This document shows, piece after piece, positions 22,638-56,836 of a stretch of 64,000 nt of DNA. Source of the stretch: Siphonodentalium dalli. Lineage: Eukaryota > Mollusca > Scaphopoda > Gadilida > Siphonodentaliidae. A program made the position numbers and the translations under genes. The notes below the pieces were generated by a model. The model was given only the letters and a program-made list of their open reading frames with translations. It was not told where the DNA came from and made no database searches. Position 1 is the stretch's first letter. The number at the start of each line of letters is the position of its first letter. The stretch lies in the NCBI GenBank assembly GCA_032622095.1, contig CP136067.1, positions 49,577,899 to 49,641,898 of the forward strand, written 5' to 3'.

Positions 22638-22941
22638 CAATTACTTTATGTAAATAAATATGTGTTTGCGCATAAAACAAAATCGCATTCGCATGGACGG
22701 GTCTCTTCAAGATATGACGCCTTCGATCAGCCACGCAACGGTTCTGTTTTCTTAAACATATCCATTTGCTGCATAATATATATTTCCATGTATGTATATT
22801 TTCTTCTCCTACAAGGAGGTATACAATAAAATATAACTACTCGTTCACGCCTCATTGATATCTTCCCTTTTCTGCGTGCAGAAATTATTTTCCGCCTAAT
22901 TTACTACGTTCAAACGTCGGAAATTATATTTGCAGTGGTAA

Positions 22942-25262: not shown

Positions 25263-25373
25263 AATTAGTCTACCGATACTGATGCACACAAATTGGCGGT
25301 AGCCACCGGCGGTAGCCACCGGCGGTAAGCCACCGAAAACGAGACACAGCATCTCTGATGCCACCTCTTGTTT

Positions 25374-27153
25374 TTAGTTATAGCACTTTCTATCAGGAAC
25401 CAGTTTTTTCTCAAATTCTGCAATCTTCATATTACAACGAGCATTGAATCTGTCACATCGATACCTGTATTGGAGGGCTGCTATAAAAGCATTGACGGAC
25501 AGCATATCTGGGTTGAATTTAGTTCGATATATGTATTGTTTGACAAGCAGCCAAAACAAATTGGTGGTATAATTTCCTTCTGTTGGTGGAGAACCTAGAA
25601 TAATTATTTGTTTCGAAGTTTTGAGATTAAGGTTATTTTTGGTTGACCAATCGTTAAACTCACCTATGAATTGTTGTACGCATGCGCAGTCCCAGAATAT
25701 ATGTGAGATGTTCTCATTATTATTTCTGCATCGATTACACTGGTCATCAGATCTTACTTTTTTATTTTAATAAATCTATTAGTTGATAATATCCGAGAAG
25801 TAATCCTAAACTGTAACCACTGCAGCTTTGTATCAGGCGTCGTGGAGTAAGGTATGCGGTTGAACGATGTCCAGTATATTTCTGGCTCCCCAAGTTCAAT
25901 TGCCCATTTGCTTTGGGGCTTGGGGGAAAATTTCATAGCATTCAAAATTTAATAGAAGTCTTGCCCACCCTTTGAATTTTGAAAAAGTGGAACCATATTA
26001 GTACAACGAGTTAAGGTTTTCGTATATTTTTTGGCTAATGAATTAATTTGTCTACGAATTGCGTTCTGCAGGGTGATGAAGTCGGTGGATACATTAAAAG
26101 ACGCGTAAAGACTTTCGGGTGTGTGGAATTTACCATTTGTATGTATCACGTCATTGATAAAAAATATGCCATGTCTTCTCCATGTAGCGAAGTTGATCAT
26201 TTTGTCGTGACACTTTATGTTTGGATTATTCCATAAGACCCATGTACATATATTCCCGTTTGACTCGTTCTTCTCGCTGAAATAGCTCCATGTTGTGAGT
26301 ACATCACGCAAAAATGGATTTAATATATTTTTGGAGTAGTTTCGCAAGTACATGCTGTCATAAAAAAGAAATAGTGAGTCATCGGCAACAGGGAGATCAG
26401 TTAATGGGATCCATTTCGAGTTCATTGCTACAAGACGTCTAACCCAAGTTAATTTCATTGACATTATGAAGTGTTTTATATCTACCATTTTCAAACCGCC
26501 ACGTTGATAGTCTTGATATATGAGCTTTCTTTTTATTCTGTCCCTATTCGAATTCCAAAGAAATTTGTAAAGAAGTGATTCGAGTTGTTTAATAAATGCT
26601 TGTCCAGGATCTGGTAATGCTATGAATAGGTGGGTAAGTTTAGATAGTATAAGAGATTTGATCACTGTTATTCTTCCGATTGGTGTTAATAGTCTATGTT
26701 TCCATGTTTCGATCATACGGTTTATGTCTACTAATTTGTTATCATAGTTGTGACTCATCTCGCCTAGGTCTGTATTGAACTGTATACCCAATAAATCGAA
26801 GGTATGAGAAAAGCCAGATATGTTTGCAAAGTAGTCTAGTACTTTATAAGCTTCTCGTAAACTATTTTCACTACCATCTAAGATGAGTGTCGTGTCGTCT
26901 GCGTACTGTGTTATTTTGTACTAATGATTGCCGAGGGTTATTCCTGAACTGAACATTTATCAATGGAAATTTCTAGTTCATTTTTTATTTTTAGTAATGA
27001 GCCTTCTTTTTCTTATCGCTCATCATGATTATATAGCGATTGATACTTAACCGGGGTTCATGATTATATAGCGATTGATACTTAACCGGGTGCACAATTA
27101 TATAGTGATAGAAACTTAACCACGCTTGCGTTTAGCCGAATACGCCACTGTTT
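25374..27153 (-). pseudogene. L1/Tx1-like LINE ORF2 remnant A
   Basis: On the minus strand the order is: a YADD box (QYADDT, near 26880-26912); an open frame 26791-25949 with LVDINRMIETWKHR, IGRITVIKSLILSKLTHLFI and GGLKMVDIKHF, which are signature blocks of L1/Tx1-type reverse transcriptases; a further block at 25945-25754 (DTKLQWLQFRITSRIL..NRF); and a zinc-ribbon CNRC-x8-H-x4-C with a stop at 25374. Frame breaks occur near 25948 and 25754. To the right, the YADD region is joined at about 26955 directly to DNA that in remnant B (44.6-46.8 kb) lies about 830 bases further upstream, so part of the palm is deleted. A last matching patch (GCTTGCGTTTAGCCG) sits at 27125-27153. Confidence 0.9.
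27024..27120. repeat. Short tandem repeat, ~36-bp unit, inside LINE remnant A
   Basis: CATGATTATATAGCGATTGA followed by TACTTAACCGGG occurs twice, and a third diverged unit (CACAATTATATAGTGATAGA) follows. The array sits between two patches that both match LINE remnant B, so it was inserted into or arose within the dead LINE. Confidence 0.75.
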
Positions 27154-38679: not shown

Positions 38680-39578
38680 TAATTGGTAACTTCGAAGTCT
38701 AGTTTTCACACGTTCACGTTGTTTCATAGAGGCAGAATGTTTTATTTATTTATAAAGTTTATTTATAAAGTTAGCGACTTAGGAAAAGTTCAATTTGGAA
38801 ATCGTTTAGATAAAATTATGAATTTTTGGACCCTCATAAATAAATCTATTATCTCTTCCAATGATAGTTTGTGGCTTCCATGTAGCAAGGTTTTTACTCC
38901 TGGTCTTGTTATTAATCCCCCAAAACACCTATCTCTTTCAACCAAATATCTGCGACAATAAAAAAGAAAATGTTCTGATGTTTCTTTGGCACCACAAATA
39001 CACAACGGACTATCTCTCAGATGGTTGCTGAAAAGATCATAGTTTAAATTACTGCATTCCAGTCTTAATCGGCAATGGTATATTTGACTTGCTCTCGTAT
39101 ATGCATATTCCAAGTATCTAGGACGCTCTTTGAGGTCACTATTCAAAAATGTTTTGAAGTCTGAGAGTGTTTCACATTTCCTCACTTCTGGTTTTAACTC
39201 GTTCCAAAGATTGATTGTGTGTGGAAGAAATGATTTCTGATAAGTAACTGAGTTGCAGAAAGGTACTCTAAGATCATCTGATCTCGTGTCATATCCACTA
39301 GTACTCGATATTGTATTCGGAACAGCATTGTATAGATAAGGGGGAGTGAGTTTTTTCGTCATTTTAAAAAAGAGCATGAGTTTAGTCTTTACTCTCCGTT
39401 TTGATAATTTTTCCCACCCAACTTCTTGAAGAACTGTGCATTTATTACAACTTCTTGTTCCACCGGTTACTATTCTAGCGGCTTCGTACTGAATATCTTC
39501 TAGTGAATCGGCTTCTTCGCCTGTACAATTGTCCCATACCGAGGAAGCATATTCCAAGACGGGACGAATATAGGACAA
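38680..39578 (-). pseudogene. CR1/Jockey-like LINE ORF2, 3' part (split by insertion)
   Basis: The minus-strand frame begins at the insertion junction with LLSYIRPVLEYASSVWDNC, continues with YEAARIVTGGTR, VGWEKLSKRR and SFLPHTINLWNEL, and ends with a zinc-ribbon CICG-x6-H-x4-C (LCICGAKETSEHFLFYC) and a stop at 38790. 38680-38789 is probably the 3' UTR. The other half of the gene is at 41804-43868: its last residues (RIYLSYI) join directly to this part across the inserted element. The two halves are thus one older LINE cut by a younger insertion. Confidence 0.9.
39567..39578. repeat. Target-site duplication, left copy
   Basis: AATATAGGACAA is identical to 41804-41815 and directly flanks the plus-strand LINE insertion. 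It lies within the coding sequence of the older minus-strand LINE. Confidence 0.85.
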
Positions 39579-41278
39579 TAGTGCCAATTCATAAAAAAGA
39601 AGACAGGAGTAAAATGTCTAACTATAGGCCTGTATCACTGCTCAGCTGTATATCAAAGGTGTTTGAGAAATGTATATATAAAAAAATTTGGGACTTTTTA
39701 ACACTTAATGGACTAGTATCAAATTTACAGTCAGGATTTGTCCGTGGTGATTCCACTGTCTTTCAACTCACCGATATCTACGATTACATTGCAGACTCAT
39801 TGGACCAAGGTAAAGAAATAAGATCTGTCTTCTGTGACGTTAGCAAAGCGTTTGATAAAGTATGGCACACAGGTTTATTGTACAAACTTGAACGTATTGG
39901 TATCACTGGTAAATTACTTCACTTGATCGAGAGTTATCTAAGTCAACGCCAACAACGAGTAATAATTGACAATGAAAACTCAGATTGGAAACCCGTACAA
40001 GCAGGTGTTCCCCAAGGATCTATACTTGGACCTTTACTATTTATAGTTTATATAAACGATATATCTGAAAATGTTACTTGTCACATCCGACTTTTTGCTG
40101 ACGATACATCCATGTTTCTTACTATAGAAGATCCAGACAGAGCAGCAGATATGATGAATATGGATATCGCGAGACTAGCTAATTGGGCACATCAGTGGCT
40201 TGTTACTTTTAATCCTCAAAAAACTGAATCTCTTCTCATCTCCAGAAAGCGAACACCCATAGCCCACCCACCACTTCAGATGTCCAATTCTATTATCACA
40301 GAAGTTAGCTCGCATAAACACTTAGGATTAACATTTGACAATCAAGCGAAATGGGGTGACCACATAGATGATATTACTGATAGAGCTTGGAAGAAAATTA
40401 ATATAATGCGAATGCATAGATTTTCGCTGAATAGAAAAACCCTTCAAAAAATATATTTCTCTTACATTCGTCCAATCATAGAATATGCTGCACCAGTATG
40501 GGACAATTGTACATGTGAATTGAGCACACGACTTGAAAAAATTCAATTTGAAGCAGCAAGGATCGTTTCAGGAGCCACGCGTAGCACTAACAATAGCGAC
40601 CTTCTATCTGAACTTGGGTGGGAAACATTAGCAGAAAGGAGAAAAAAATTTAAACTACATCAGTTTTATAAAATGTTTGTTAGATCATCACCATCCTATT
40701 TATACAACATGATCAACACCGATACCCCGGGTTCCCAGAGATATAATTTTAGGAGAAAAGACTTAAGACCTCCGCAAGCTGACAACTCGGCATATATGAA
40801 CACCTTCCTTCCATCTGCTACTCGCCTGTGGAATGTGTTAACACCCGAAACTAAAAGCGCAAAGTCTTTAGAGATATTCAAGTCACGACTAGATATAGAA
40901 AAACGGAGAAATTCATTGAAAGTCCAACATTTTGATTATTGTTTAAATCGCGAAACCCAAATATTCCATGCCCGTTTAAGACTCAAGTGTAGTAATCTAA
41001 ATCGTGACCTTCGTGAAAACCATTTACGCGATTGTGACAAATGTGTATGCGGGGATGTAGAAAGCGCTGAACACTTTCTATTATTCTGTCAAAGATATAC
41101 TCAACTCAGGTCTGACTCATTCTCAAATATTGACCCGACTTTCTTAACTACCAAGATCTTACTCAAAGGCATACCATTGCTATCATCTGAAATAAATAAT
41201 GAAATATTCCGAGCTACGCAATACTTCATTCAAAAAAGCGGACGTTTCAAACAATACACTAACAATTCAACGGCATAG
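39579..41278 (+). CDS. Reverse transcriptase fragment of the inserted LINE, frame intact
   Basis: One uninterrupted frame of about 566 codons runs from the insertion edge to TAG at 41278. (The frame happens to be open into the host DNA to an ATG at 39503, but that part is not element sequence.) Motifs in order: NYRPVSLLS; LQSGF; DVSKAFDKVWHTGLL (motif A); GVPQGSILGPLLF (motif B); FADDTSMFL (catalytic Asp pair, near 40090-40115); HKHLGLTF; SYIRPIIEYAAPVWDNC; zinc-ribbon CVCG-x6-H-x4-C. The palm is complete apart from the first block. It has no visible stop or frameshift, so the insertion is young, but without an endonuclease it cannot move on its own. Confidence 0.9.
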
Positions 41279-41815: not shown

Positions 41816-43883
41816 TAAATTCTTTCTAGAGTTCTTCTATCAAGGATAAATTTATACTTCCTCAGTATGTACAATCTTTTGGACGCTCGGTTTTCAATAT
41901 CTTCTATATGGTCTTTCCATTTACCCTGTCGGTTGAATGTCAGACCCAAATGTTTATGTGTGTCTACCTCATTTATTCTCTCGTTTGACATGTTTAGTAC
42001 TGGTTGGTCAATAGGTATTTGTTTCCACGAAACAAGCACGGATTCTGTTTTCAATGGGTTGAATTTAACTGCCCAGGTCTTTGACCAGTTGAATATTTTG
42101 TGTAGGTCTGAATTGATCAAATCTGCAGCAATTGTGGGATCTTCTATAGCAATATAAAGTGATGTATCATCCGCAAATAATCTTATATTACATGTAATTC
42201 CCTCGACTATGTCGTTTATATACACGAGAAATAGGAGAGGGCCGATTATTTATCCTTGAGGCACTCCTGTTGTAACGTCTTTCCATGGCGAATTAAAGTT
42301 AGAAATTGTTACTCTTTGTTGTCTACAATCAAGATAGTTTTCAAGTAGTTTTAAAAGCTTCCCAGTTATCCCCGTTCTTTTAAGTTTAAAGAGGAGACCC
42401 CTGTGCCAAACCTTATCGAACGCCTTGCTTATATCGCAGAATACACCCCTTATTTCCCTCCCATCGTCAAGGGCTGAGATAATATAATGGTAAATATCGA
42501 TCAATTGGAATACTGTGCTATCGTTCGGTGTAAATCCCGACTGTAGGTCGGTTAAAAGCTTATTCTTCGTAGGTATTTTGATATATGATAGAATAGACAT
42601 TTCTCGAAGACCTTAGACAGACAACTGAGTAAGGATACTGGTCGATAATTGGATGGATCGCTGGGATCTCCATTTTTGAAAATTGGGCATACGTTTGCCT
42701 TTTTCCATTCTGAAGGAAAATACGACCGTTCAATGAAAACCCTGAAAGAGAATGCTAGTGGTTTAGCTAGTGATATCGAACAATTTTTTAATACTTTGGA
42801 ACTAATACCATCGTATCCGGCCGCTTTCGATGTCTTGATTGAGTTTAAACTTTCGAGTACACGTTCATCAGATATTTCAATGTCGCTCAGGCGCTTAACC
42901 GTTAACCAATCAAAGATGGGTAACTCTAACTTATCTTCATCAGGTAAGGAGGAGATTTTACAAAAATAGTTATTTAATAAGTCTGCCTTTTCTTCATTTT
43001 CGGTTATTATAATCTGGTCAGTTTTTAGGGCTGGTATTGGTTTAGGTTCTGGTTTCATGAGGTGGTTTAATGTTTTCCACCAGAGTGAGGAATCAGTGAA
43101 ACAACTACCCAGTATTGACTGTGTTTTCTCCAGAGACTTTTGCTTGGAACGTCTTATTTTTGCTATAACTTCATTTCTTTTCTTTTTATAATTCGTCCAC
43201 GCTTCAATTGTTTCTCTTTGTTTTGCCAATTTGTAGTAACGTCTCCTTTGTCTCATAAGTTTTCGAATTTCACATGTTAACCATTCAGGTTCATTGTGTC
43301 GAACTATTACGAGTTTATTTGGTATATATAGATTCGCGGTGTCAATTATTTTTTTCGTTAGAGCTTCTGCTATTTCATCAGATCGAATTGCTGAGAGATC
43401 TCTCTTAAAGTCCCACGCGTTGAAGGCATTATTCATTGCGGAGTAATCGGCTCGATTATAATCCCATATCCTTCTTTTCATGATTTCACTCGGCTTCTTA
43501 AATTTCAAATTCAAACGTAGCAAGATTGGACAATGAAACCGAGTTAAATCCGAAAAGAATGGATCTAAGATTTCATTCGGTTCAACAACCTCAGGGGTAT
43601 TTGTAAAATATAAGTCTATGAGAGAAGAAGAACTTTCTGTGAAATATGTAGCTTGTTTAATTATTTGCTTTAGGCCAAAGCGCTGATAAATATATTTAAT
43701 TGGTTTTGTTTCTAATGGTATTTGGTTTGAATTAAAATCTCCAGTTATTATAACATGTGGGATATTAGTACGATCGCCCAACGCCAAGTCAATATTTGTA
43801 TATATATTTTCCCATATACTGATGGGTGTATTTGGTGGTCTATAAAACGTACCAAGCAAAAATCTCATTGTGGATGTTTCAAT
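41804..43883 (-). pseudogene. CR1/Jockey-like LINE ORF2, endonuclease and RT part
   Basis: Minus strand. The frame from about 43883 reads LEIETSTMRFLLGTFYRPPN and HVIITGDFN (APE endonuclease, but without its first ~90 residues). It continues with IDLYFTN, a linker with WLTCEIRKLMRQRRRYYKLA and FWWKTLN-like sequence, TSKAAGYDGIS, and NYRPVSLLSCLSKVFEKC. One frameshift near 42555-42600 moves to the frame with LTDLQSGFTPNDSTVFQL and SKAFDKVWHRGLL. In GVPQG*IIGPLLF a serine codon has become TAA (42250-42252). The frame then continues with FADDTSLYIAI and HKHLGLTF to the insertion junction. The element is therefore damaged lightly: a missing endonuclease start, one frameshift, one stop and the insertion. 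Confidence 0.9.
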
Positions 43884-44604: not shown

Positions 44605-46790
44605 GATCTGGTAATGCTATGAATAGGTGGGTAAGTTTAGGTAGTATACGAGATATGTTCCAACTTAAATGTTGGCTTTGCAAATAAACAATCAATCAAG
44701 ATTTGATCACTGTTATTCTTCCGATTGGTATTAATAGTCTATGTTTCCATGTTTCGATCATACGGTTTATGTCTACTAATGTTTTATCATAGTTGTGACT
44801 CAGCTTGCCTGGTCTGTATTGAACTGTATACCCAATAAATCGAAGGTATGAGAAAAGTTTAGATTTAGATCGGGATAAATACAATCCTTCCGACATGCGT
44901 ATGATCCTATCCACGACGCCTGACATTTGCTAGGGTAGATTCGCAAGCCAGATATGTTTGCAAAGTAGTCTAAGATGAGTGTCGTGTCGTCTGCGTACTG
45001 TGTTATTTTGTACTAATGATTGCCGAGGGTTATTCCTGCCATATTTCCATTTTGCTTCACCAAGAGAGATAAAATTTCTGCGCATATCAAACAAATATAC
45101 GGTGAGACAGGGTCACCTTGTCGACAGCCTCGGGAAAGACTGAAACTCCTTGAGATGTGGCCATTTATCAGAATTGATGAATTAATATTGTTGCAAAAAA
45201 TTGTAATCCATCTCTTTAATGATTCACCAAAATTGAACATATCTAAACAGTTCATAATGAATTTCCATGATACGGAATCAAATGCTTTTTCAAAATTTTG
45301 AGAAGGTGTGGGCCTTGTTTTTGTGTCATAGAAAGCTCACCATCAACGAGGGATTCATTTAGCGATTCACACAGCAGTTGACCGAGGTCAGTCCAGAACA
45401 ATTTCCAGAACTCATAAGGATAGCCATCTAAGCCGGAAGATTTTTCCGTTTTTCGATTTTTTTAGTGCCATCGTTAGTTCACCTAGAGTTATCGGGCCTT
45501 CTATACTTTGGGATGCCTCGGGCGATAGTCTTGAATATTCACCTTGATCCAATATTGATTTGTAATCAAAGTCTATTGTTTTTTTTGACGAGTACAAGGT
45601 TTGGTAGAAATTTCGTGTTTCATTTAAAATTTCATTTTGTTTTGTTAACTTTTTTCCGTTTGAATCCTCCAAGAATGCCAGGGTTTTTTATATATATAGT
45701 TTCGTTTTCTAAATTCAGAAAGTATTTCGTTGGTTTTTCTCCCTGCTCAATCCACTTTGTTTACGATCTCATCATTGCTCCTTGGGTAGCTTCTATTCTC
45801 ATTTCATGGAGTTCAGGGTTAATGTTTTGAATTTGTTCCATTATACTGGCCTTCTTATTTAAATCAACTGAACATTTATCAATGGAAATTTCTAGTTCAT
45901 TTTTTATTTTTATTTTTTCGCTCACGCTTGCGTTTAGCCGAATACGCCACTGTTTGACCGCTGATATCGAGGAGAATTGCGTCAAGAAATAGTTGTTTGC
46001 CAATTTCGCATCTATTTGAGGTGGAATCCGCTTCACCGCGTCTGATATATTTGTATCTACATTTGTTTGATTCTATGATAGATTTAACCAATTCTATATA
46101 TTTTTCTTCGCGTAAGAGAGAAGTATTGAATTTCCAAAAACCCTGGCCTCTCTTGATATTATTCAGCGCTAAAGATAGAGTAATAATAGAGTGATCTGAT
46201 CTATATCCTGGTAATATATCTGGGCCCGCTCCTGTGATACTAATTAGGTCATTTGATATCAGGAAATAATCAAGTCTTGCCATTTTAATTGGAGATCTTC
46301 TCCTCCAGGTGTATCGCTTCTCATTTTCATTATTAAGGCTCCATACATCTACAAGTTCGAGTCTAGTCTGTCGACAAGTGGTTCCACTGCTTTTAATGCT
46401 TTTGGGTTATTTATATGTTTATAATTATAAGTATCCATGTTTTGGTCGCGAGCTAAATTCCAGTCCCCACAAATGATAACTTGTGTGTTGCCAATATCAA
46501 GAATTTTATTTTTGAGTTGAAGATAGAAATCTGGATTATCTTCGTTTGGTCTGTAGATATTTGCAAGAGTTACTCTCATTTTTTCAAAAGTCATGTCTAG
46601 TATAATAAAGTTTCCGTTGTCATCCTTTAATATGTATATGATAGTCAAAGTTATTGTTGAAAAGAATTGCTACTCCGCGTGATTGGGATTTGTAAGAAGC
46701 TGCTTCAATTTTGAAGCCCCATTCGGTAGATTTCGGTATCGATATCTCGACATCGCTGCGTTCAATTTCGCCGAGTTATATGTCAAATGA
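44605..46790 (-). pseudogene. L1/Tx1-like LINE ORF2 remnant B
   Basis: The minus-strand order is: an endonuclease start near 46740 (STEWGFKIEAASYKSQSRGV, AILFNN), QVIICGDWNLARD, RLDYFLIS, GYRSDHSIITLSL and GFWKFNTSLL; a linker with ETRNFYQTLYSS; RT pieces SLSRGCRQGDPVSPYICLI (45130-45090) and QYADDT (near 44975-45000); then INRMIETWKHRLL and IGRITVIKS. Frames change at least five times. It is the same family as remnant A at 25.4-27.15 kb, with near-identical DNA where they overlap. Each copy has its own internal deletions. Here ~48 bases (ATGTTCCAACTTAAATG...) interrupt the match near 44650-44698. The 3' third is missing, cut at the ORF1 remnant to the left. Confidence 0.9.
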
Positions 46791-46915
46791 AAGGGAATTT
46801 TATTGCCAATAAGACACATCTGAGGATATTTTTGCCTGCAATTATCGATTTCTAGAACTTATTAGGGCTTTGACAGTTTGTGTGGTTTTAAACCAAAATC
46901 AATACTTTCAACCTT
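46791..46915. other. Short non-coding flank
   Basis: AT-rich DNA between the LINE remnant and the 321-bp flanking repeat; nothing recognised. Confidence 0.5.
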
Positions 46916-47236
46916 GTCACTAGTATAGTCGATATTGGTATTTTAGTCATTTTCCCCAGGGGCCTGTAGTACTGATCATATTATTATGCTACTTTGATAT
47001 ATCCTCGGGCTAATAGGTTCACATTGGACCTGAATACTGACATTGGTTCATATTGGACTTACTTGGTTCTGATATAGCCCATAATGGACGTATACCCGTC
47101 GTTATAACCTACGACAGGGTACCCTGAGTCACCACACCAAATTTGTTTGAAATCGGACCAGTAGTCTGGGAGATAAATCCGGACAGACAGACGGACAGAC
47201 AGATCCTACTCTTGTGTGTGTATATATATATATATA
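46916..47236 (+). repeat. 321-bp flanking direct repeat of the Penelope pair, left copy
   Basis: It starts GTCACTAGTATAGTCG and ends in (TA)n. It matches 55568-55888 at a constant offset of 8,652 with no difference noticed. It contains CACACCAAATTTGTTTGAAA, CCAGTAGTCTGGGAGATAAA and GGACAGACAGACGGACAGAC. Diverged relatives occur at 56185-56290 and (inverted) 63270-63440, so it belongs to a dispersed repeat family. It may be a long target-site duplication made by the Penelope insertion, or the PLE may have entered between two tandem monomers of this repeat. Confidence 0.85.
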
Positions 47237-47320
47237 TTTTGAAAGTGTGGAGAGCGCGGGCACAGGTCGGAATCCGATTTCTTATGTAATTATTTCTATG
47301 GAACTAGCTAAATTTTTTTA

Positions 47321-47485
47321 GGTTGTGTCGGAAATTGACATAAATTTTGTTAGGTTGTGTCAGAAATTGACATAAATTTTGTTAGGTTGTGTCGGAAATT
47401 GACATTGAATAATTTGTTGAGCATTGTTGTCATTCAAAGATGGAACTAGCTAAATTTGTTTGGGTTGTGTCGGAAATTGACATAA
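47321..47485. repeat. 32-bp tandem repeats in the PLE 3' UTR (copy 1)
   Basis: GGTTGTGTCGGAAATTGACA starts at 47321, 47353 (one base different) and 47385, an exact 32-base period, and a separated further copy begins at 47462. The array lies between the ORF2 stop and the 3' end. Its role is unknown; repeats near the 3' end could serve RNA recognition by the RT (speculation). Confidence 0.85.
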
Positions 47486-47557
47486 AATATTGTGTTGAGC
47501 ACAAACTAAGGATAATGGTGTTGACATAAGCTAAAAGCTAATTGAACTGCGTGTTAA

Positions 47558-49924
47558 TCAAGGTCTGAGTCTAGATCGAACGAGCATATCTCTCAAACTG
47601 GGATTTTTCTTGTAGGCAATAATAACCCGTTTGTCGAGAGGCTCGGTCAATTTAGTGTTTAATAATGCAAAGTTTTTTCTGAAAATGTTTGCGATTTCAA
47701 CATTTCTACGATTGTAGATCAGAGGAAAGCACAAGAAATTTCGAGAAACACCTTTGTAGTCAATGTTAAGTCCGAACGGAAGATATGTTTTAAGTACGCC
47801 CATCCAATGATTTTCGCGTTCTAGGCGTATTGAATCGGTTTGGTCTTCGTCGGCTAGAATTGGTGTCTGTTCTATTGGCTGAAAGCTGAAATGGGATTTA
47901 ATGTCATGATTAGATGAGTTGAAATGATCGGAAATTTGCATGTCGAGTTTTTTGCGAACACTGGAAAGATGATTAGACATTCTAACTTTGAGAGAGGTTT
48001 TTGTTTGTCCAACATATTGTATACGGCATCTTTTGCATGTGATTAAGTAAATTACATTTTTAGAATCACAATTAAGTTCGCTATGCATTTGATACGATAT
48101 GCGTGTTTGTTCGCTGGTGAAAGTGTTACTAGTATTGATATATCCTATTGTATTGATGTAACATCGTTTTTTGTGACAAAATGAGGCTGAACCATTACCC
48201 AACACCGGCCGGTTGTGCCGTATCCTTGTTGGTTCAGTCGATGTTGGGTCATGGCGTGACGAGTTCAATTCTCTGAGAGTTTCGGACTTTACTTGGCGCA
48301 GTAATCTACTAGAGTAGCCGCGCGGTCGTAAAGCCTGGAAAAGCACTGAACAAGCTTGATTTAGGTCGCTTCTGTTCGTGCAGTTCCGGTGATATCGAAT
48401 GATTTGAGATTTAATCAATCCATTGAAAAGTTTTGGCGGATGGAAAGATTTACGATGAAGTAGCTGGTGAGAATCCGTTGGTTTCGTAAAAAGTTTTGTA
48501 TCTAAAATGTTGCATGATGTAAATTGTGGGCCCTTAAATATTGTTAAATCAAGGAAATCAATGCTGGTTTGCGATATTGATTCTTTGAGTTTGATTGATT
48601 CGTCATGACTGTTCAAGATGTCCAAGAACACCCTAAACTCATCCAGACCATGAGTCCAAATGATAAATATGTCGTCCAAGAATCTATAATAGGCTAATGG
48701 TTGTTTATCAGATTTGGCCAGGGCGCCTTTCTCCCACTCTGCAACAAAAATTGAGGCAAAATTAGGACTAAACTTCTTGCCCATACTGCAGCCGGAGACC
48801 TGTAAATAATATCGTCCATTAAATTCAAAGTCATTCCCTTTAAGAGAAAGTTCTAATAATTGAAGTAGTTCATCTCCAGGTCTATGAGGATCATGGTGGA
48901 AATCAAATGCATTCTTAATTGACTTTAATCCGGCATCGATTCCAATATTTGTATACATAGATTCCACGTCGAGACTAATTAGGTAAGCAGAAGGTGGAAC
49001 TTCAATTTTCGACAATTTAATGAGGAAGTCCTCCGTGTCTTTTAGATAGCTCGGATGGCGGGTAGCAATTGGTTTCAAATAGAAATCAATAAACTCCGAA
49101 ATGTGGTACGACTCCGAAGCCACGTCGCTGATGATGGGGCGACCGGGTGGTGTGTATGGATTAGTCCAACAGCTCAAAGGTTTGTGTATTTTAGGTAGCA
49201 AATAAAATGTCCTATTATTGGATTCAGGTTTTGCAATTAGATACTGAACATGTTTTTTCTTTAAAACGTCCTGGTCCAGCAAGCTTTTGAGAATGAGATT
49301 GAATTTTAAAACATTGGATTTCCAAATTGGCTCATCCAATGGTTTGTAATATTTAGTGTTGCTTAATTGGCGCGTCGCTTCTAGAATGTAATTTTCTTTA
49401 GACATGATGACGAGCGAGCTGCCTTTGTCACAAGGTTTGATTACAATGTTTTTATTGCTGCGAAGAGTTTTTAGTGCAGTTCTTTCAACTTTAGTGAGGT
49501 TATCCTCGTTGTGAAATTTTGGTAAATTTGTGATGTCGGTTTTGACTAAGCCAGCGACCTCGGGAATGGAGTGGTCAATCTGGCGATCAGAGGGGGTCCA
49601 TATCGAAGGTTCTTTAAATTGATCTTTTAAACCTGTCGAATTGCGAAAGAAATCAGCCATAGCTGTTACTTCCCTAAATTGCATGCTTGCTGGACCGCCG
49701 TTCATTTCCATGGCATACATAGAGTCTGGTAAAACCAATGTTCCATCCTCCGTCTCAACAACATGTGGTGTTTCTTTGAGATCGGGTGGGGTAGGAACAA
49801 AGGTTAGACCATACCTAAGTATTGATTTCTCACCAGCGCTCAGGGAAAGATCGGGTACAAGATTGACTATCTCGGTGCCGAGACCGACTCTTTCCGCATG
49901 GCTGATGCGCTTCTGAGGAATTAG
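47558..49924 (-). CDS. PLE reverse transcriptase with GIY-YIG endonuclease (ORF2, read by -1 frameshift)
   Basis: The reading frame is open from 49924 (first codon after the slippery site) to the stop at 47558, 788 codons. There is no ATG close to its start, and the conserved PLE N-terminus (GEKSILRYGLTFVPTP) lies upstream of the first internal start candidate at 49738. Numbered from 49738, motifs are: KPCDKGSSLVIM (101-112), LPKIHKP (181-187), GRPIISDVASES (199-210), SLDVESMYTNI with catalytic Asp257, GCSMGKKFSPNFA (316-328), YRFLDDIFIIW with Asp355/356, LHRKSFHPPKLFNGLI, Cys-rich CHKKRC and CKRC, and the GIY-YIG nuclease VIYLITCKRCRIQYVGQTKT (562-581) with an Arg at 586. The enzyme would nick DNA and prime reverse transcription. 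The match to EN-containing Penelope RTs is clear; the subclade is not assigned. Confidence 0.95.
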   Translation of the reverse strand, partial: LIPQKRISHAERVGLGTEIVNLVPDLSLSAGEKSILRYGLTFVPTPPDLKETPHVVETEDGTLVLPDSMYAMEMNGGPASMQFREVTAMADFFRNSTGLKDQFKEPSIWTPSDRQIDHSIPEVAGLVKTDITNLPKFHNEDNLTKVERTALKTLRSNKNIVIKPCDKGSSLVIMSKENYILEATRQLSNTKYYKPLDEPIWKSNVLKFNLILKSLLDQDVLKKKHVQYLIAKPESNNRTFYLLPKIHKPLSCWTNPYTPPGRPIISDVASESYHISEFIDFYLKPIATRHPSYLKDTEDFLIKLSKIEVPPSAYLISLDVESMYTNIGIDAGLKSIKNAFDFHHDPHRPGDELLQLLELSLKGNDFEFNGRYYLQVSGCSMGKKFSPNFASIFVAEWEKGALAKSDKQPLAYYRFLDDIFIIWTHGLDEFRVFLDILNSHDESIKLKESISQTSIDFLDLTIFKGPQFTSCNILDTKLFTKPTDSHQLLHRKSFHPPKLFNGLIKSQIIRYHRNCTNRSDLNQACSVLFQALRPRGYSSRLLRQVKSETLRELNSSRHDPTSTEPTRIRHNRPVLGNGSASFCHKKRCYINTIGYINTSNTFTSEQTRISYQMHSELNCDSKNVIYLITCKRCRIQYVGQTKTSLKVRMSNHLSSVRKKLDMQISDHFNSSNHDIKSHFSFQPIEQTPILADEDQTDSIRLERENHWMGVLKTYLPFGLNIDYKGVSRNFLCFPLIYNRRNVEIANIFRKNFALLNTKLTEPLDKRVIIAYKKNPSLRDMLVRSRLRP

Positions 49925-51363
49925 TTTAAATGACCTTTAAAGATGTTGGTCCAGCCTTGGTAGATTTTCGCCGCCGTCTGTGATGTCCAGTGGATGTTGT
50001 CATTCTCCACGTGAAAGTCGCGGGGGGGTATTGCCTGTATGACCTTGAGGTTCTGTGTCTGACGAGCTTGGCTGTTAATGGCACGCAGAACATCCTGGTC
50101 CCTAGAATCTAAACTGAATGAGATATTTATTTCCTGAAAATGAAGTGTCGCATTAGGAAAAACTTTTCGGAAATTACTAACCATGTTAGTTACCCTGCTT
50201 TTAGCTGTGGTGCCTGCTGTTTTGCCTTTGTCGTTGTCTATCTTCCAGTCCTCTCGGTTGTTGATGCCAATGTTGATGATGACGTGTCGAGGTGTCTTTT
50301 CTGGCTTCGATTTCAGTTTGTGGGCCATGTTGCAGAAATGACCTAAATTGCCACCTGGGTAAGAAGCAATACAAACATTTTTGGGAGGATCGACATCGAT
50401 CCGGGACACATTAGAAGAGCCTAAAATAACAACAGGGTTTTTTATCTGTTTAGGGAAGGACCAATCCTTCTTAGGGCCAGGTTGACGAAATTTATAAAAT
50501 TTGGATACCTTAGGTGATGTTGATAATACCTCGGCATACGATGGTGATGATGTTGAAATCGCTGGCGATGTCATCGAAGCAATGGAACCAACAGGCGAAG
50601 GAGGGCTGGAAGAGATGTGCTTTGGTGGTGTTGTTTTCTTGGCTGGTGAATTTTGAAGTGATGTATTTGGTGGAGTGGATATGCGTGACGTCCGTGGTTT
50701 TGGTGCAGGTCTCTGTGGCTGTGGTGTGGCTTTGACGCGTTTTGGTGTGGATCTCACAGACGACGACGTTGTCGGATCCCTGGCTGGACTATCCTGAAAT
50801 TGAAGCTGGCGAGCGATTAGTGGGGGAGGGGAGGGTGACCGACCACGTTTGTTTGTATGAGTTTGGACGCCAACTCGTGTACCTATCGAGGACTGAAGAT
50901 TACCACAGATGCTCAAGAACTTTGATTTTGTCTCATTAGTTAATTTGGTGCCAAAATTCTTCAGTCCCCATTTTAATGCCGTGTCACGTGCTCGGTCGAA
51001 GTCAAGGGTTTTAGAAGAAAGAGCCGAAAGAACCTTGACTTCAATTTCTGATTCCGTTTTCCGATAATAATTTACCAAAGTTTTCATGGAGTTTAAACCC
51101 CACTGAAAAGCGTCCGCTTTAAGCGAATTGAAGACATCGTCACAGGGGAGCACTGGTCGGAATGTCTTCTTTCGCCCTGACTCAACGATGGCCGAAAAGC
51201 CTTTCGGAAGGACCTTCTTCTCCAAACGGTCCTGTAAAAAATTAATATGGTGCCAAAGTTGTAGAATTTTGTATAGCAACTTTACTAGATTTGAATGGTC
51301 TAAATAAGCCTGGTCTTTTTGCCGCTCTGGGCGGTTAGTTTTTCCACGTTTAGGTTGAGTCAT
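49921..51363 (-). CDS. PLE ORF1, SGNH-hydrolase-like protein
   Basis: 480 codons from ATG at 51363. Residues 1-150 are helix-prone and basic (KLLYKILQLWHHINFLQDRL); 170-300 are Pro/Ser/Thr-rich and probably disordered; 310-472 look like an SGNH/GDSL fold. Block I is VVILGSSNVSRI (Gly315, Ser317 in the nucleophile position, with the usual Asp of GDS replaced by Ser), then SYPGGNL (Gly337-338), IINIGINNR (Asn368/369) and HVENDNIHWT (Asp455-x-x-His458). Similar esterase-like domains occur in CR1-type ORF1 and in some Penelope-related elements. Function in transposition is unknown; RNA or membrane association is a guess. The stop TAA (49921-49923) follows directly on a T TTA AAC heptamer that sets up a fusion with the RT. 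Confidence 0.85.
   Translation of the reverse strand: MTQPKRGKTNRPERQKDQAYLDHSNLVKLLYKILQLWHHINFLQDRLEKKVLPKGFSAIVESGRKKTFRPVLPCDDVFNSLKADAFQWGLNSMKTLVNYYRKTESEIEVKVLSALSSKTLDFDRARDTALKWGLKNFGTKLTNETKSKFLSICGNLQSSIGTRVGVQTHTNKRGRSPSPPPLIARQLQFQDSPARDPTTSSSVRSTPKRVKATPQPQRPAPKPRTSRISTPPNTSLQNSPAKKTTPPKHISSSPPSPVGSIASMTSPAISTSSPSYAEVLSTSPKVSKFYKFRQPGPKKDWSFPKQIKNPVVILGSSNVSRIDVDPPKNVCIASYPGGNLGHFCNMAHKLKSKPEKTPRHVIINIGINNREDWKIDNDKGKTAGTTAKSRVTNMVSNFRKVFPNATLHFQEINISFSLDSRDQDVLRAINSQARQTQNLKVIQAIPPRDFHVENDNIHWTSQTAAKIYQGWTNIFKGHLN
49924..49930 (-). promoter_or_regulatory. Predicted -1 ribosomal frameshift site (T TTA AAC)
   Basis: ORF1 ends CAT TTA AAC TAA. The heptamer T TTA AAC obeys X XXY YYZ in the ORF1 frame and is one of the most efficient known slippery sequences. 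Slipping one base back makes CTA ATT CCT CAG the next codons, precisely the frame that stays open for 788 codons of RT. Downstream, CGCAT-CAGCC-ATGCG (starting 14 bases after the heptamer) and TCTCG-GCAC-CGAGA can form hairpins. Confidence 0.75.
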
Positions 51364-51484
51364 TTTGATCCAGGACTTGAATTTTGGCTGTGAATAAAGG
51401 TAATGATTAGTAACATATAATACACAAAGAACGGAACGCGAAGATATACAATAAAAAAGTACTTAGGAGCGCACTGTCAAGTTG

Positions 51485-51543
51485 CCTCAACGTTTCGGTA
51501 GAATTACCTTCTTCAGGAAGCAAGCTAGGTTCGAATGTTGAGG
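51485..51543 (-). ncRNA. Hammerhead-ribozyme-like motif in the PLE 5' UTR
   Basis: On the minus strand: CCTCAAC (51543-51537), ATTC, GAA...TTC (51532-51517), CTGAAGA (51516-51510), A, GGTA-ATTC-TACC (51508-51497), GAAAC (51496-51492), GTTGAGG (51491-51485). CTGANGA and GAAA are the two conserved core strands. The outer CCTCAAC/GTTGAGG pairs perfectly (stem III), GGTA/TACC is stem II and GAA/TTC stem I, with predicted cleavage after C51533. Deviations: one extra A before stem II, and a mismatch next to the A15.1-U16.1 pair. Hammerhead motifs are established in Penelope-like elements; activity here is untested. Confidence 0.6.
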
Positions 51544-51556
51544 TTTTTCCATGGAT

Positions 51557-51564
51557 CTTATATA
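51557..51564 (-). promoter_or_regulatory. TATA box of the PLE
   Basis: GGGTATATAAGATCC on the minus strand contains a strong TATATAAG. The usual start 25-31 bases downstream would fall at about 51533-51526, which coincides with the predicted hammerhead cleavage position (51533/51532). Confidence 0.5.
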
Positions 51565-51924
51565 CCCGTGTGAGATAAGCTCCCATTGTGCTCCAGGGTT
51601 TCGAGAGACGTGTCAACAGCTATGTTCCTGTTTAAAACAAACAGTGAAACAATGCATACAAAATGTTTGGCGCCGTCACGACGCCCGTGTTTATTTAAGA
51701 TCGCGCGTTCTTAATGGGTTGTGTAATGGCTTCCGGAAGCCCCTAATCCAAATCCTAGTGACAGTACGCAATTAGACAGTAATACATATGTGTTAAGTAA
51801 ATAGAAATAAAAGATATCCCTGGCACAGGCGATATATATATTTTGAAAGTGTGGAGAGCGCGGGCACAGGTCGGAATCCGATTTCTTATGTAATTATTTC
51901 TATGGAACTAGCTAAATTTTTTTA

Positions 51925-52089
51925 GGTTGTGTCGGAAATTGACATAAATTTTGTTAGGTTGTGTCAGAAATTGACATAAATTTTGTTAGGTTGTGTCGGA
52001 AATTGACATTGAATAATTTGTTGAGCATTGTTGTCATTCAAAGATGGAACTAGCTAAATTTGTTTGGGTTGTGTCGGAAATTGACATAA
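51925..52089. repeat. 32-bp tandem repeats in the PLE 3' UTR (copy 2)
   Basis: Same array as at 47321-47485, with the same unit order. Confidence 0.85.
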
Positions 52090-52161
52090 AATATTGTGTT
52101 GAGCACAAACTAAGGATAATGGTGTTGACATAAGCTAAAAGCTAATTGAACTGCGTGTTAA

Positions 52162-54528
52162 TCAAGGTCTGAGTCTAGATCGAACGAGCATATCTCTCAA
52201 ACTGGGATTTTTCTTGTAGGCAATAATAACCCGTTTGTCGAGAGGCTCGGTCAATTTAGTGTTTAATAATGCAAAGTTTTTTCTGAAAATGTTTGCGATT
52301 TCAACATTTCTACGATTGTAGATCAGAGGAAAGCACAAGAAATTTCGAGAAACACCTTTGTAGTCAATGTTAAGTCCGAACGGAAGATATGTTTTAAGTA
52401 CGCCCATCCAATGATTTTCGCGTTCTAGGCGTATTGAATCGGTTTGGTCTTCGTCGGCTAGAATTGGTGTCTGTTCTATTGGCTGAAAGCTGAAATGGGA
52501 TTTAATGTCATGATTAGATGAGTTGAAATGATCGGAAATTTGCATGTCGAGTTTTTTGCGAACACTGGAAAGATGATTAGACATTCTAACTTTGAGAGAG
52601 GTTTTTGTTTGTCCAACATATTGTATACGGCATCTTTTGCATGTGATTAAGTAAATTACATTTTTAGAATCACAATTAAGTTCGCTATGCATTTGATACG
52701 ATATGCGTGTTTGTTCGCTGGTGAAAGTGTTACTAGTATTGATATATCCTATTGTATTGATGTAACATCGTTTTTTGTGACAAAATGAGGCTGAACCATT
52801 ACCCAACACCGGCCGGTTGTGCCGTATCCTTGTTGGTTCAGTCGATGTTGGGTCATGGCGTGACGAGTTCAATTCTCTGAGAGTTTCGGACTTTACTTGG
52901 CGCAGTAATCTACTAGAGTAGCCGCGCGGTCGTAAAGCCTGGAAAAGCACTGAACAAGCTTGATTTAGGTCGCTTCTGTTCGTGCAGTTCCGGTGATATC
53001 GAATGATTTGAGATTTAATCAATCCATTGAAAAGTTTTGGCGGATGGAAAGATTTACGATGAAGTAGCTGGTGAGAATCCGTTGGTTTCGTAAAAAGTTT
53101 TGTATCTAAAATGTTGCATGATGTAAATTGTGGGCCCTTAAATATTGTTAAATCAAGGAAATCAATGCTGGTTTGCGATATTGATTCTTTGAGTTTGATT
53201 GATTCGTCATGACTGTTCAAGATGTCCAAGAACACCCTAAACTCATCCAGACCATGAGTCCAAATGATAAATATGTCGTCCAAGAATCTATAATAGGCTA
53301 ATGGTTGTTTATCAGATTTGGCCAGGGCGCCTTTCTCCCACTCTGCAACAAAAATTGAGGCAAAATTAGGACTAAACTTCTTGCCCATACTGCAGCCGGA
53401 GACCTGTAAATAATATCGTCCATTAAATTCAAAGTCATTCCCTTTAAGAGAAAGTTCTAATAATTGAAGTAGTTCATCTCCAGGTCTATGAGGATCATGG
53501 TGGAAATCAAATGCATTCTTAATTGACTTTAATCCGGCATCGATTCCAATATTTGTATACATAGATTCCACGTCGAGACTAATTAGGTAAGCAGAAGGTG
53601 GAACTTCAATTTTCGACAATTTAATGAGGAAGTCCTCCGTGTCTTTTAGATAGCTCGGATGGCGGGTAGCAATTGGTTTCAAATAGAAATCAATAAACTC
53701 CGAAATGTGGTACGACTCCGAAGCCACGTCGCTGATGATGGGGCGACCGGGTGGTGTGTATGGATTAGTCCAACAGCTCAAAGGTTTGTGTATTTTAGGT
53801 AGCAAATAAAATGTCCTATTATTGGATTCAGGTTTTGCAATTAGATACTGAACATGTTTTTTCTTTAAAACGTCCTGGTCCAGCAAGCTTTTGAGAATGA
53901 GATTGAATTTTAAAACATTGGATTTCCAAATTGGCTCATCCAATGGTTTGTAATATTTAGTGTTGCTTAATTGGCGCGTCGCTTCTAGAATGTAATTTTC
54001 TTTAGACATGATGACGAGCGAGCTGCCTTTGTCACAAGGTTTGATTACAATGTTTTTATTGCTGCGAAGAGTTTTTAGTGCAGTTCTTTCAACTTTAGTG
54101 AGGTTATCCTCGTTGTGAAATTTTGGTAAATTTGTGATGTCGGTTTTGACTAAGCCAGCGACCTCGGGAATGGAGTGGTCAATCTGGCGATCAGAGGGGG
54201 TCCATATCGAAGGTTCTTTAAATTGATCTTTTAAACCTGTCGAATTGCGAAAGAAATCAGCCATAGCTGTTACTTCCCTAAATTGCATGCTTGCTGGACC
54301 GCCGTTCATTTCCATGGCATACATAGAGTCTGGTAAAACCAATGTTCCATCCTCCGTCTCAACAACATGTGGTGTTTCTTTGAGATCGGGTGGGGTAGGA
54401 ACAAAGGTTAGACCATACCTAAGTATTGATTTCTCACCAGCGCTCAGGGAAAGATCGGGTACAAGATTGACTATCTCGGTGCCGAGACCGACTCTTTCCG
54501 CATGGCTGATGCCCTTCTGAGGAATTAG
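52162..54528 (-). CDS. PLE reverse transcriptase with GIY-YIG endonuclease (copy 2)
   Basis: Same length and same protein as 47558-49924 from the internal start at 54342 onward. All RT motifs (SLDVESMYTNI, YRFLDDIFIIW) and the GIY-YIG motif are present. The only difference noticed lies in the leader between heptamer and conserved N-terminus: 54513 is C where 49909 is G, changing an Arg codon to Gly and removing the outer base pair of the CGCAT/ATGCG hairpin. Because the 5' UTR and ORF1 start are missing, this copy would depend on another promoter. Confidence 0.9.
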   Translation of the reverse strand, partial: LIPQKGISHAERVGLGTEIVNLVPDLSLSAGEKSILRYGLTFVPTPPDLKETPHVVETEDGTLVLPDSMYAMEMNGGPASMQFREVTAMADFFRNSTGLKDQFKEPSIWTPSDRQIDHSIPEVAGLVKTDITNLPKFHNEDNLTKVERTALKTLRSNKNIVIKPCDKGSSLVIMSKENYILEATRQLSNTKYYKPLDEPIWKSNVLKFNLILKSLLDQDVLKKKHVQYLIAKPESNNRTFYLLPKIHKPLSCWTNPYTPPGRPIISDVASESYHISEFIDFYLKPIATRHPSYLKDTEDFLIKLSKIEVPPSAYLISLDVESMYTNIGIDAGLKSIKNAFDFHHDPHRPGDELLQLLELSLKGNDFEFNGRYYLQVSGCSMGKKFSPNFASIFVAEWEKGALAKSDKQPLAYYRFLDDIFIIWTHGLDEFRVFLDILNSHDESIKLKESISQTSIDFLDLTIFKGPQFTSCNILDTKLFTKPTDSHQLLHRKSFHPPKLFNGLIKSQIIRYHRNCTNRSDLNQACSVLFQALRPRGYSSRLLRQVKSETLRELNSSRHDPTSTEPTRIRHNRPVLGNGSASFCHKKRCYINTIGYINTSNTFTSEQTRISYQMHSELNCDSKNVIYLITCKRCRIQYVGQTKTSLKVRMSNHLSSVRKKLDMQISDHFNSSNHDIKSHFSFQPIEQTPILADEDQTDSIRLERENHWMGVLKTYLPFGLNIDYKGVSRNFLCFPLIYNRRNVEIANIFRKNFALLNTKLTEPLDKRVIIAYKKNPSLRDMLVRSRLRP

Positions 54529-55567
54529 TTTAAATGACCTTTAAAGATGTTGGTCCAGCCTTGGTAGATTTTCGCCGCCGTCTGTGATGTCCAGTGGATG
54601 TTGTCATTCTCCACGTGAAAGTCGCGGGGGGGTATTGCCTGTATGACCTTGAGGTTCTGTGTCTGACGAGCTTGGCTGTTAATGGCACGCAGAACATCCT
54701 GGTCCCTAGAATCTAAACTGAATGAGATATTTATTTCCTGAAAATGAAGTGTCGCATTAGGAAAAACTTTTCGGAAATTACTAACCATGTTAGTTACCCT
54801 GCTTTTAGCTGTGGTGCCTGCTGTTTTGCCTTTGTCGTTGTCTATCTTCCAGTCCTCTCGGTTGTTGATGCCAATGTTGATGATGACGTGTCGAGGTGTC
54901 TTTTCTGGCTTCGATTTCAGTTTGTGGGCCATGTTGCAGAAATGACCTAAATTGCCACCTGGGTAAGAAGCAATACAAACATTTTTGGGAGGATCGACAT
55001 CGATCCGGGACACATTAGAAGAGCCTAAAATAACAACAGGGTTTTTTATCTGTTTAGGGAAGGACCAATCCTTCTTAGGGCCAGGTTGACGAAATTTATA
55101 AAATTTGGATACCTTAGGTGATGTTGATAATACCTCGGCATACGATGGTGATGATGTTGAAATCGCTGGCGATGTCATCGAAGCAATGGAACCAACAGGC
55201 GAAGGAGGGCTGGAAGAGATGTGCTTTGGTGGTGTTGTTTTCTTGGCTGGTGAATTTTGAAGTGATGTATTTGGTGGAGTGGATATGCGTGACGTCCGTG
55301 GTTTTGGTGCAGGTCTCTGTGGCTGTGGTGTGGCTTTGACGCGTTTTGGTGTGGATCTCACAGACGACGACGTTGTCGGATCCCTGGCTGGACTATCCTG
55401 AAATTGAAGCTGGCGAGCGATTAGTGGGGGAGGGGAGGGTGACCGACCACGTTTGTTTGTATGAGTTTGGACGCCAACTCGTGTACCTATCGAGGACTGA
55501 AGATTACCACAGATGCTCAAGAACTTTGATTTTGTCTCATTAGTTAATTTGGTGCCAAAATTCTTCA
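54525..55567 (-). pseudogene. PLE ORF1, 5'-truncated (copy 2)
   Basis: Matches the last ~345 codons of the full ORF1, including the Pro-rich middle and the whole SGNH-like region (ILGSSN, GINN, DNIH). It lacks the N-terminal ~135 codons and has no own promoter. The frameshift heptamer is conserved at 54528-54534. Confidence 0.9.
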
Positions 55568-55864
55568 GTCACTAGTATAGTCGATATTGGTATTTTAGTC
55601 ATTTTCCCCAGGGGCCTGTAGTACTGATCATATTATTATGCTACTTTGATATATCCTCGGGCTAATAGGTTCACATTGGACCTGAATACTGACATTGGTT
55701 CATATTGGACTTACTTGGTTCTGATATAGCCCATAATGGACGTATACCCGTCGTTATAACCTACGACAGGGTACCCTGAGTCACCACACCAAATTTGTTT
55801 GAAATCGGACCAGTAGTCTGGGAGATAAATCCGGACAGACAGACGGACAGACAGATCCTACTCT

Positions 55865-55888
<24 letters not shown>
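55568..55888 (+). repeat. 321-bp flanking direct repeat, right copy
   Basis: Matches 46916-47236 with no difference noticed. Its right end runs into the long (TA)n tract, showing that the original locus had a microsatellite at the insertion point. Confidence 0.85.
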
Positions 55889-55898
<10 letters not shown>

Positions 55899-55899
55899 G

Positions 55900-55961
<62 letters not shown>

Positions 55962-55984
55962 CTATATATATATATATATATATC
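55871..55984. repeat. (TA)n microsatellite
   Basis: About 110 bases of TA repeats, interrupted twice by TATAGCTATA. The PLE 3' ends also end in TA repeats, so this tract may have been the insertion target. Confidence 0.95.
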
Positions 55985-56184
55985 GTATAAAGTGTTGAGA
56001 ACTATATGCACAGATATATATATAGTAGAAATGAATAAACTTATACCCGTTATTCTGTTGGACGGCACGGGCCACAGTGAAACACATCTATAAAGACCTG
56101 AAATAGGCACATAGTGAGCGTATTTTATTTTATTTTTTGTGTGTATTTAATTATAATTTTTTTAATCAACAGTTTGAAAAACTA

Positions 56185-56290
56185 ACCTCCGCCAGATTAT
56201 CCCGAGTCACCATACCAAATTTGGTTGAAATCTGACCAGCAGTCTGGGAGAAACACCCGGACAGACGGACAGACAGATCTTACTCTTTTA
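56185..56290 (+). repeat. Diverged member of the 321-bp repeat family
   Basis: TCACCATACCAAATTTGGTT, CCAGCAGTCTGGGAGAAACA and GGACAGACGGACAGACAGAT match the right third of the 46916-47236 repeat at about 85%. It ends in TCTTTTATATATTTTG. Confidence 0.75.
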
Positions 56291-56836
56291 TATATTTTGA
56301 TAGCTGATAATGCTGTTATCAAGAGAGAACTATCGCGACGCGAATGGAGTTATCTTTCTTATAATGCATTCCCGATCGAAGACAAATTAGCCACATTTTG
56401 ATCACAACTTGATGAAAGGTATTGGAAAAATGTCATATAATTGAAAACTATTCTTAAAATCATATTCAAACTGAAATATTTGAACGTTCTACACGATTAT
56501 CATTGTGTGTTGACAAATCACTGTAACAGTACTGTTTACATATTTGACAACTGGTTTCAAGTCTAGAAATTTCGTTATTCCAGAAAATTCAATAATTAAT
56601 ATAAGAACAAAGTTTATTGCGAGCAACTATTCTGGCATCGTGCCAAAACACACCCGCGTCCACCTGTGCTATCTGGAAGATACATTTATATGTAGTCTGG
56701 CTCATAACATATGGCGGAGGAAAATGCTAAACGTATGCTATGTTGTCAGCATACATAGTTTATTTGCGTTAACTGTGATATATATAGAAGATTATGTAAA
56801 TTTGTAATCGTAAAATTATAACATATTCTTTTTCAG
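56291..56836. other. Intron sequence (upstream of receptor exon), no other gene seen
   Basis: AT-rich. It ends in a good splice acceptor (ACATATTCTTTTTCAG, AG at 56835-56836). The preceding receptor exon, which should code for the pore and SYTANLAAF region, was not found anywhere to the left in this window. Confidence 0.6.

Follow-up and report, generated by a model that had tools for sequence, protein, structure and literature searches.

Candidate programmed −1 ribosomal frameshifting between an SGNH-like ORF1 and a Penelope-type reverse transcriptase ORF in Siphonodentalium dalli

Programmed −1 ribosomal frameshifting very probably joins the two open reading frames (ORFs) of a Penelope-like element (PLE) that we analyzed in a 64,000-nt stretch of the Siphonodentalium dalli genome (assembly GCA_032622095.1, contig CP136067.1, positions 49,577,899 to 49,641,898 of the forward strand; the window). 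The predicted shift would yield a fusion of the ORF1 protein with the reverse transcriptase (RT) and GIY-YIG endonuclease of ORF2, in the style of Gag-Pol. Among eukaryotic retroelements PLEs form the third class, with an RT that is kin to telomerase, and the ways in which this RT is expressed and the RNA packaged are poorly known. A preliminary description of the window had proposed the frameshift; that interpretation is supported here, because heptamer, frame and phase are kept across diverged families of the element.

The ORF1/ORF2 junction of the window element

The window element belongs to family A; relatives from the same genome form families B to H. The features at its junction are:

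49921..51363, minus strand: ORF1, 480 aa from the ATG at 51363, with a C-terminal SGNH/GDSL-like domain (ORF scan, subthreshold Pfam GDSL/SASA matches, Foldseek)
47558..49936, minus strand: ORF2, Penelope-type RT plus GIY-YIG, in the −1 frame (792 aa stop-to-stop; 790 aa from the slip codon)
49924..49930, minus strand: slippery heptamer T_TTA_AAC (from the sequence; kept in families B and C)
49921..49923, minus strand: ORF1 stop TAA, directly 3′ of the heptamer (invariant in A, B and C)
54528..54534, minus strand: the same heptamer in a second, tandem copy (copy comparison)

The 3′ codons of ORF1 are GGT CAT TTA AAC TAA, and ORF2 reads TTT AAA CTA ATT across the junction in the −1 frame, with an overlap of 16 nt between the two ORFs. 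This is the exact phase for simultaneous slippage (T_TTA_AAC), and the downstream ORF lies at −1. The end of ORF1 (CAT TTA AAC TAA) and the opening of the RT frame at −1 over the heptamer had been described correctly to the base, as had the abutment of slip site (49930-49924) and stop (49923-49921). The earlier distance of 2,367 nt from 49924 to 47558 is obtained by counting from the CTA at 49924, and the predicted fusion of about 1,268 residues as 480 + 788.

Ribosomes would translate ORF1, an SGNH-type protein, and most would terminate at the UAA and release it. A minority would slip one base back on U_UUA_AAC, the P-site pairing moving from UUA to UUU and the A-site pairing from AAC to AAA, and would read on into ORF2 to give an ORF1-RT-GIY-YIG fusion of ∼1,268 residues. 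As with Gag-Pol, the fusion would be made at a low, fixed ratio to ORF1 protein alone, and the latter would act like Gag or like the ORF1 protein of long interspersed nuclear elements (LINEs). Families D to H would use U_UUU_UUA likewise. Slippage, its efficiency, the fusion protein and the role of the fusion are all what we infer from these sequences. UUUAAAC had been called a highly efficient −1 heptamer in RNA viruses, and a passage of PMC5009743 lists U_UUA_AAC among the shiftiest heptamers on mammalian ribosomes.

A 23-mer spanning the junction had 286 genome matches at ≤3 mismatches (control, 3), and among the matches listed (∼100) every one was exact; the frame break is therefore not a one-off lesion. 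In codon shuffles any canonical heptamer occurred at a given place with a frequency of 0.004–0.006, and TTTAAAC with 0.0001–0.0002. In-phase canonical heptamers in ORF1, the junction included, numbered five in A, three each in C and B, and two in D; the junction heptamer is the only one common to A, B and C. A second in-phase TTTAAAC was noted within the family A ORF1 at 51097 (minus strand) and is absent from B and C.

Conservation of the slip site and of the reading frames

Relatives were sought in the source genome (2.23 Gb, 9 contigs) with a GIY-YIG search (146 matches; 150 of 796 candidates scored). From this list 20 loci were fetched for variety of open frames, not by junction, and they fall into families A, B, C and D. 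By BLAST, ORF1 of B and C is 30% and 49% identical to that of A, and ORF2 49% and 68%. Alignment of related PLE junctions had been put forward as a check of the frameshift, and with these relatives heptamer and frame proved to be kept in A, B and C. In an alignment re-test, TTTAAACTAA (UUUAAAC-UAA, 10 nt) was in identical phase at 14 of the 14 junction-bearing loci among 16 A/B/C loci; the other two have no usable junction (none present in L041; masked there in L055). In L049 the heptamer is present, but ORF2 meets a stop soon after. Four additional loci drawn from the GIY-YIG list, L072-L075, lack a junction. Within a family, the copies are 98–100% alike around the junction, so that the 14 loci amount to three comparisons, not 14. 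Between the families synonymous divergence is near-saturated: in the three-way ORF2 codon alignment only 20.5% of third positions are invariant, and the pairwise proportion of synonymous differences (pS) is 0.67–0.83. Only one invariant run in that alignment is longer than the 10-nt TTTAAACTAA.

The constrained frame was analyzed between A and C. Over the 147 nt from the slip site, differences in the ORF2 frame fell on codon positions one, two and three in the numbers 10, 5 and 26, with a ratio of nonsynonymous to synonymous rates (dN/dS) of 0.13 (pS 0.63; proportion of nonsynonymous differences, pN, 0.16); the other frames gave ratios >2 and contained stops. Over the 141 nt before the slip site, the ORF1 frame had 20, 12 and 26 differences (pS 0.75, pN 0.33; the computed dN/dS of 0.10 is unsafe at that saturation), and the other frames gave ratios of ∼1. 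By these codon-position differences the constrained frame switches at the heptamer: ORF1 is constrained up to it, and ORF2 from it on.

A second type of junction is found in family D, whose ORF2 is 30% identical to that of A. It also lies at −1 and overlaps ORF1 by 124–163 nt; TTTTTTA is in phase, and the ORF1 stop ends 118 nt after the slip. A protein search of the source genome with D ORF2 gave relatives at 41–51% identity (63 matches; 58 of 3,351 candidates scored), from which 13 further short D-type loci were added. TTTTTTAG, which holds the UUUUUUA heptamer, is in phase in 12 of the 15 junction-bearing D-type loci (D 3/3, E 4/4, F 3/3, G 1/1, H 1/1); L048 and L071 have no junction and stand outside the 15. 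It is present in all five loci whose ORF2 match had no internal stop and in seven of the 10 with stops. Upstream of the D–H slip sites ORF1 is poorly conserved (pN 0.44–0.60 between families), and the fixed octamer therefore stands out.

Searches outside this genome returned nothing confirmed. ORF2 of A gave no pattern match in a viral contig collection, and the four-family alignment gave 412 pattern matches there and 505 in a genome contig collection, with none confirmed; the collections hold viruses and prokaryotes, and absence from them says little.

Evidence against frameshifting and alternative routes to ORF2

Several observations weigh against programmed frameshifting, in addition to those that favor splicing or independent initiation, discussed below. 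All junction comparisons were made within one genome. An intact UUUUUUA is missing from three D-type loci (L063 and L064, of one further family, and L065, of another), and their internal ORF2 stops do not set them apart, for seven loci that keep the heptamer have stops too. Unrelated junctions in relatives had been named beforehand as evidence that would tell against the frameshift; the in-phase sites of A/B/C (14/14) and of the D type (12/15) go the other way. The ORF1-frame alignment places the D slip site in a different column from that of E–H, because ORF1 is poorly conserved, so that the two slip sites may not be homologous in that frame. Constraint is weak in comparisons with B, both in the last 50 codons of ORF1 (dN/dS 0.77 for A-B, 0.44 for C-B) and in the 14 codons of ORF2 that follow the slip (pN/pS 0.65 for A-B; dN/dS 0.69 for C-B); from codon 17 after the slip ORF2 constraint is clear again. 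The UAA next to the heptamer may cost efficiency. According to passages of PMC4373837, some viruses also have a stop codon immediately 3′ of the slip site, and a stop placed after the HIV-1 site reduced frameshifting, which extra eRF1 reduced further. Because of this HIV-1 result, the UAA may hold the rate low instead of stimulating slippage.

Folding also found no stimulatory structure common to the families at the 5–9 nt from the heptamer taken as the criterion for a −1 site, and 45–70-nt downstream windows gave folding z-scores of −1.6 to +1.5. Longer folds of ∼100 nt (104 nt), compared with shuffles, were low in A (z −3.09) and C (z −2.64) and not clearly so in B (−1.3). One possible feature lies here:

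49831..49907, minus strand: possible bulged stem-loop downstream of the slip, in A and C only (folding and alignment; weak)

This stem-loop (alignment A3, columns 24–100) has two-sided A-C changes at columns 36/87 and 42/81; two further A copies (L057 and L058) lack the 42/81 pairing, and much of the stem-loop is broken in B. The preliminary description had drawn two small hairpins downstream; A and C instead fold into this longer bulged stem-loop, which B does not keep. D-type junctions, when folded, gave no clear structure. Downstream structure is thus unsupported as a general driver.

The main rival, above all for UUUUUUAG, is alternative splicing, in which ORF2 would be reached through a 3′ splice site at the junction (TTTTTTAG in the D type; a CAG few bases past the heptamer in A, B and C). 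UUUUUUAG does resemble a 3′ splice site, TTTTTTAG makes a good polypyrimidine-AG, and the junction reads CTAATTCCTCAG in A and C and CTAAATCAG in B. PLEs can moreover carry introns: a passage of PMC3846280 describes a spliceosomal intron in a Pen5 ORF of Adineta. Splicing, however, does not account for the invariant TTTAAAC, for the exact phase of the heptamer in both types, or for the absence of any C/T mixture from the six T that D–H keep invariant. An intron removing the ORF1 stop, named earlier as a finding that would overturn the frameshift, was checked in part. No splice donor of at least 8/9 was found in the scanned ORF1 part of A–F (1,440 to 449 nt; the scan did not extend to G, H and the 5′ untranslated region), and the 7/9 donors are mismatched in distance, the closest pair (616 nt upstream in B, 604 nt in C) falling in different alignment columns. 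Nor does a class of downstream-only (spliced) copies stand out in family A, in which 23-mer counts were 230 just upstream, 286 at the junction and 241 just downstream, the lower flank counts being unexplained. We consider splicing unlikely.

More improbable still is a separate RT protein, made by termination-reinitiation, an internal entry site, a non-AUG start or a second promoter. Many LINEs make their ORF1 and ORF2 products as separate proteins, and in family B an ATG with G at −3 and +4 precedes the conserved motif, 16 codons past the slip. In family A, however, the conserved N-terminus GEKSILRYGLTFVPTP has already been passed when the first ORF2-frame ATG appears, 70 codons from the TTT slip codon, and in C and D the first AUG comes 50 and 153 codons after the slip, again past the conserved N-terminus. 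The earlier claim that this N-terminus precedes any usable start thus holds for A, C and D and fails for B. In the E–H stretches fetched (33 to 67 codons after the slip) the sole ATG lies within the motif itself, in E and G (GMKF). Independent initiation also leaves the heptamer unexplained, and it does not fit the A-C comparison, where ORF2-frame constraint starts at the slip site.

A disabling mutation of a once-continuous ORF, spread with the family, would suit the decay of many copies and the multiplication here of ORF-breaking variants, such as an A-run variant in the endonuclease domain. Against it stand the identical break, phase and heptamer in families near synonymous saturation, the purifying selection on both ORF1 and ORF2 between A and C, and the second type, in which the heptamer differs and the overlap is long. 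On these sequence comparisons the disabling mutation appears already largely refuted, and we regard it as the most improbable of the three.

Element architecture and comparison with known retroelements

Two head-to-tail retrotransposon copies occupy 46.9–55.9 kb on the minus strand with a unit of ∼4,604 bp, the tandem or partial-tandem arrangement of PLEs. The copies are 99.97% identical over 3,739 bp (47228-50966 vs. 51832-55570); the upstream one is 5′-truncated and the other complete. The genome-wide 23-mer matches listed include arrays spaced 4,604/4,613 bp. Further features are:

49924..50496, minus strand: SGNH hydrolase-like domain of ORF1, the stretch folded (conserved blocks, structure model, Foldseek)
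48605..49000, minus strand: RVT_1 match in ORF2 (Pfam 28.3 bits, cut-off 29.6)
47795..48058, minus strand: GIY-YIG endonuclease domain in ORF2 (Pfam 34.9 bits, cut-off 22.6)
52162..54540, minus strand: ORF2 of the second tandem copy, 792 aa stop-to-stop (ORF scan)
54525..55570, minus strand: 5′-truncated ORF1 of the second tandem copy (copy comparison, ORF scan)

The RT was called Penelope-type on motifs that we take to be those of PLEs. RVT_1 is just below the Pfam cut-off in family A, reaches it in B and C, and had no match in D ORF2; integrase, protease and Gag had no Pfam match in either ORF of the window element. The order RT then GIY-YIG is that of an endonuclease-bearing (EN+) PLE, a placement made by domains rather than by a tree. 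No hammerhead ribozyme was among the four Rfam matches at E ≤ 1 in 46000-56500. A hammerhead-like core, CTGANGA...CGAAAC, lies upstream of ORF1 in A (51492-51516, minus strand) and B (L040:2999-3025, also in L041 and L042); it may be chance, as the same loose pattern also matches inside ORF1 of D.

Stop-to-stop, ORF1 is open over 513 aa; its C-terminal domain is similar to SGNH/GDSL esterases. Pfam GDSL/SASA matches were subthreshold in A and B and absent in C, the D ORF1 (scanned without those of E–H) had no Pfam match, and a PDB sequence search with ORF1 gave nothing better than E 0.46. A single-sequence model of the domain had low confidence (pLDDT 48.6). In Foldseek its eight PDB matches at E ≤ 0.001 all bear the names of esterases or PAF acetylhydrolases, and the first non-esterase ranks 23rd. 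SGNH proteins are defined by blocks carrying Ser, Gly, Asn and His, and the S, G, N and H of these blocks are kept in A, B and C. By analogy, the domain suggests a possible contact with lipids or membranes, as a passage of PMC3905857 proposes for ZfL2-1, whose ORF1 is SGNH esterase-like.

Other observations concern the surroundings and the copies. A 322-bp perfect direct repeat (46916-47237 and 55568-55889) flanks the tandem array beside a TG/TA microsatellite; no fetched locus matched it at E 1e-10, and it thus appears to be a target duplication of unusual length. The A-run in the endonuclease domain (∼47950, minus strand) has six A in the window copies and seven in eight distinct copies on several chromosomes (L009, L012, L013 (= L057), L017 (= L056), L018, L020, L023 and L025), and seven A truncate ORF2 (675 aa in L056 and L057). 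The run may vary in length, or a defective subfamily may be spreading; these copies surfaced through a high GIY-YIG score, and the share with seven A is not representative. Elsewhere in the window, an 11.1-kb head-to-tail duplication (3065-14171 and 14167-25273, 99.98% identity) has halves that each end in a ∼160-bp tandem repeat array, and ORF fragments resembling LINE endonuclease/RT by translation only lie at 39503-41278 (+), 42552-43868 (−), 25949-26791 (−) and 46349-46669 (−).

We found no earlier report of programmed frameshifting in a PLE in the literature searched, the coverage of which is incomplete, so that a prior report is possible. The frameshift passages of PMC3846280, PMC11167929, PMC6431247, PMC6515669 and PMC3849965 contain none, and that of PMC5408684 concerns the gag-pol of long terminal repeat (LTR) elements. 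The device itself is a familiar type of recoding; for this class of retroelements we could find no earlier description of it. We further consider it rather probable that (i) EN+ PLEs are not all single-ORF elements, whole lineages having a Gag-like first ORF and making RT-EN only as a −1 fusion; and (ii) given two heptamers and two ORF1 types, this arrangement arose twice or persisted through replacement of ORF1 and slip site. Should Gag-Pol-like control of the ratio hold, ORF1 protein in excess, RT tethered to ORF1 and ribonucleoprotein particles are predicted. As a sequence rule, −1 overlaps at PLE ORF1/RT junctions would call for re-annotation of elements now called frameshifted or dead.

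Canonical EN+ PLEs (Penelope/Poseidon, Neptune) share with the window element an RT with C-terminal GIY-YIG, an ORF of ∼800 aa and tandem or partial-tandem copies. In contrast to these elements, described as single-ORF in passages of PMC3846280, PMC11167929 and PMC6515669, the window element has a second, upstream ORF, and no early AUG opens the RT ORF in A, C and D. The Athena/Terminon PLEs of bdelloid rotifers do have extra ORFs, including GDSL/SGNH, but they are endonuclease-deficient and telomere-associated with several separate ORFs, and the passages of PMC5408684 mention no frameshifted RT. LINEs of the CR1/L2 type, such as ZfL2-1, likewise have an ORF1 with an SGNH esterase-like domain, whereas downstream they carry a LINE RT and an APE endonuclease. 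Animal LTR retrotransposons and retroviruses resemble the window element in having an upstream ORF and an RT at −1 over a classical heptamer; pol lies at −1 in 28 of 51 animal LTR elements in a survey cited from a passage of PMC5009743. They are, however, a different class of element, and the window element carries an RT with GIY-YIG.

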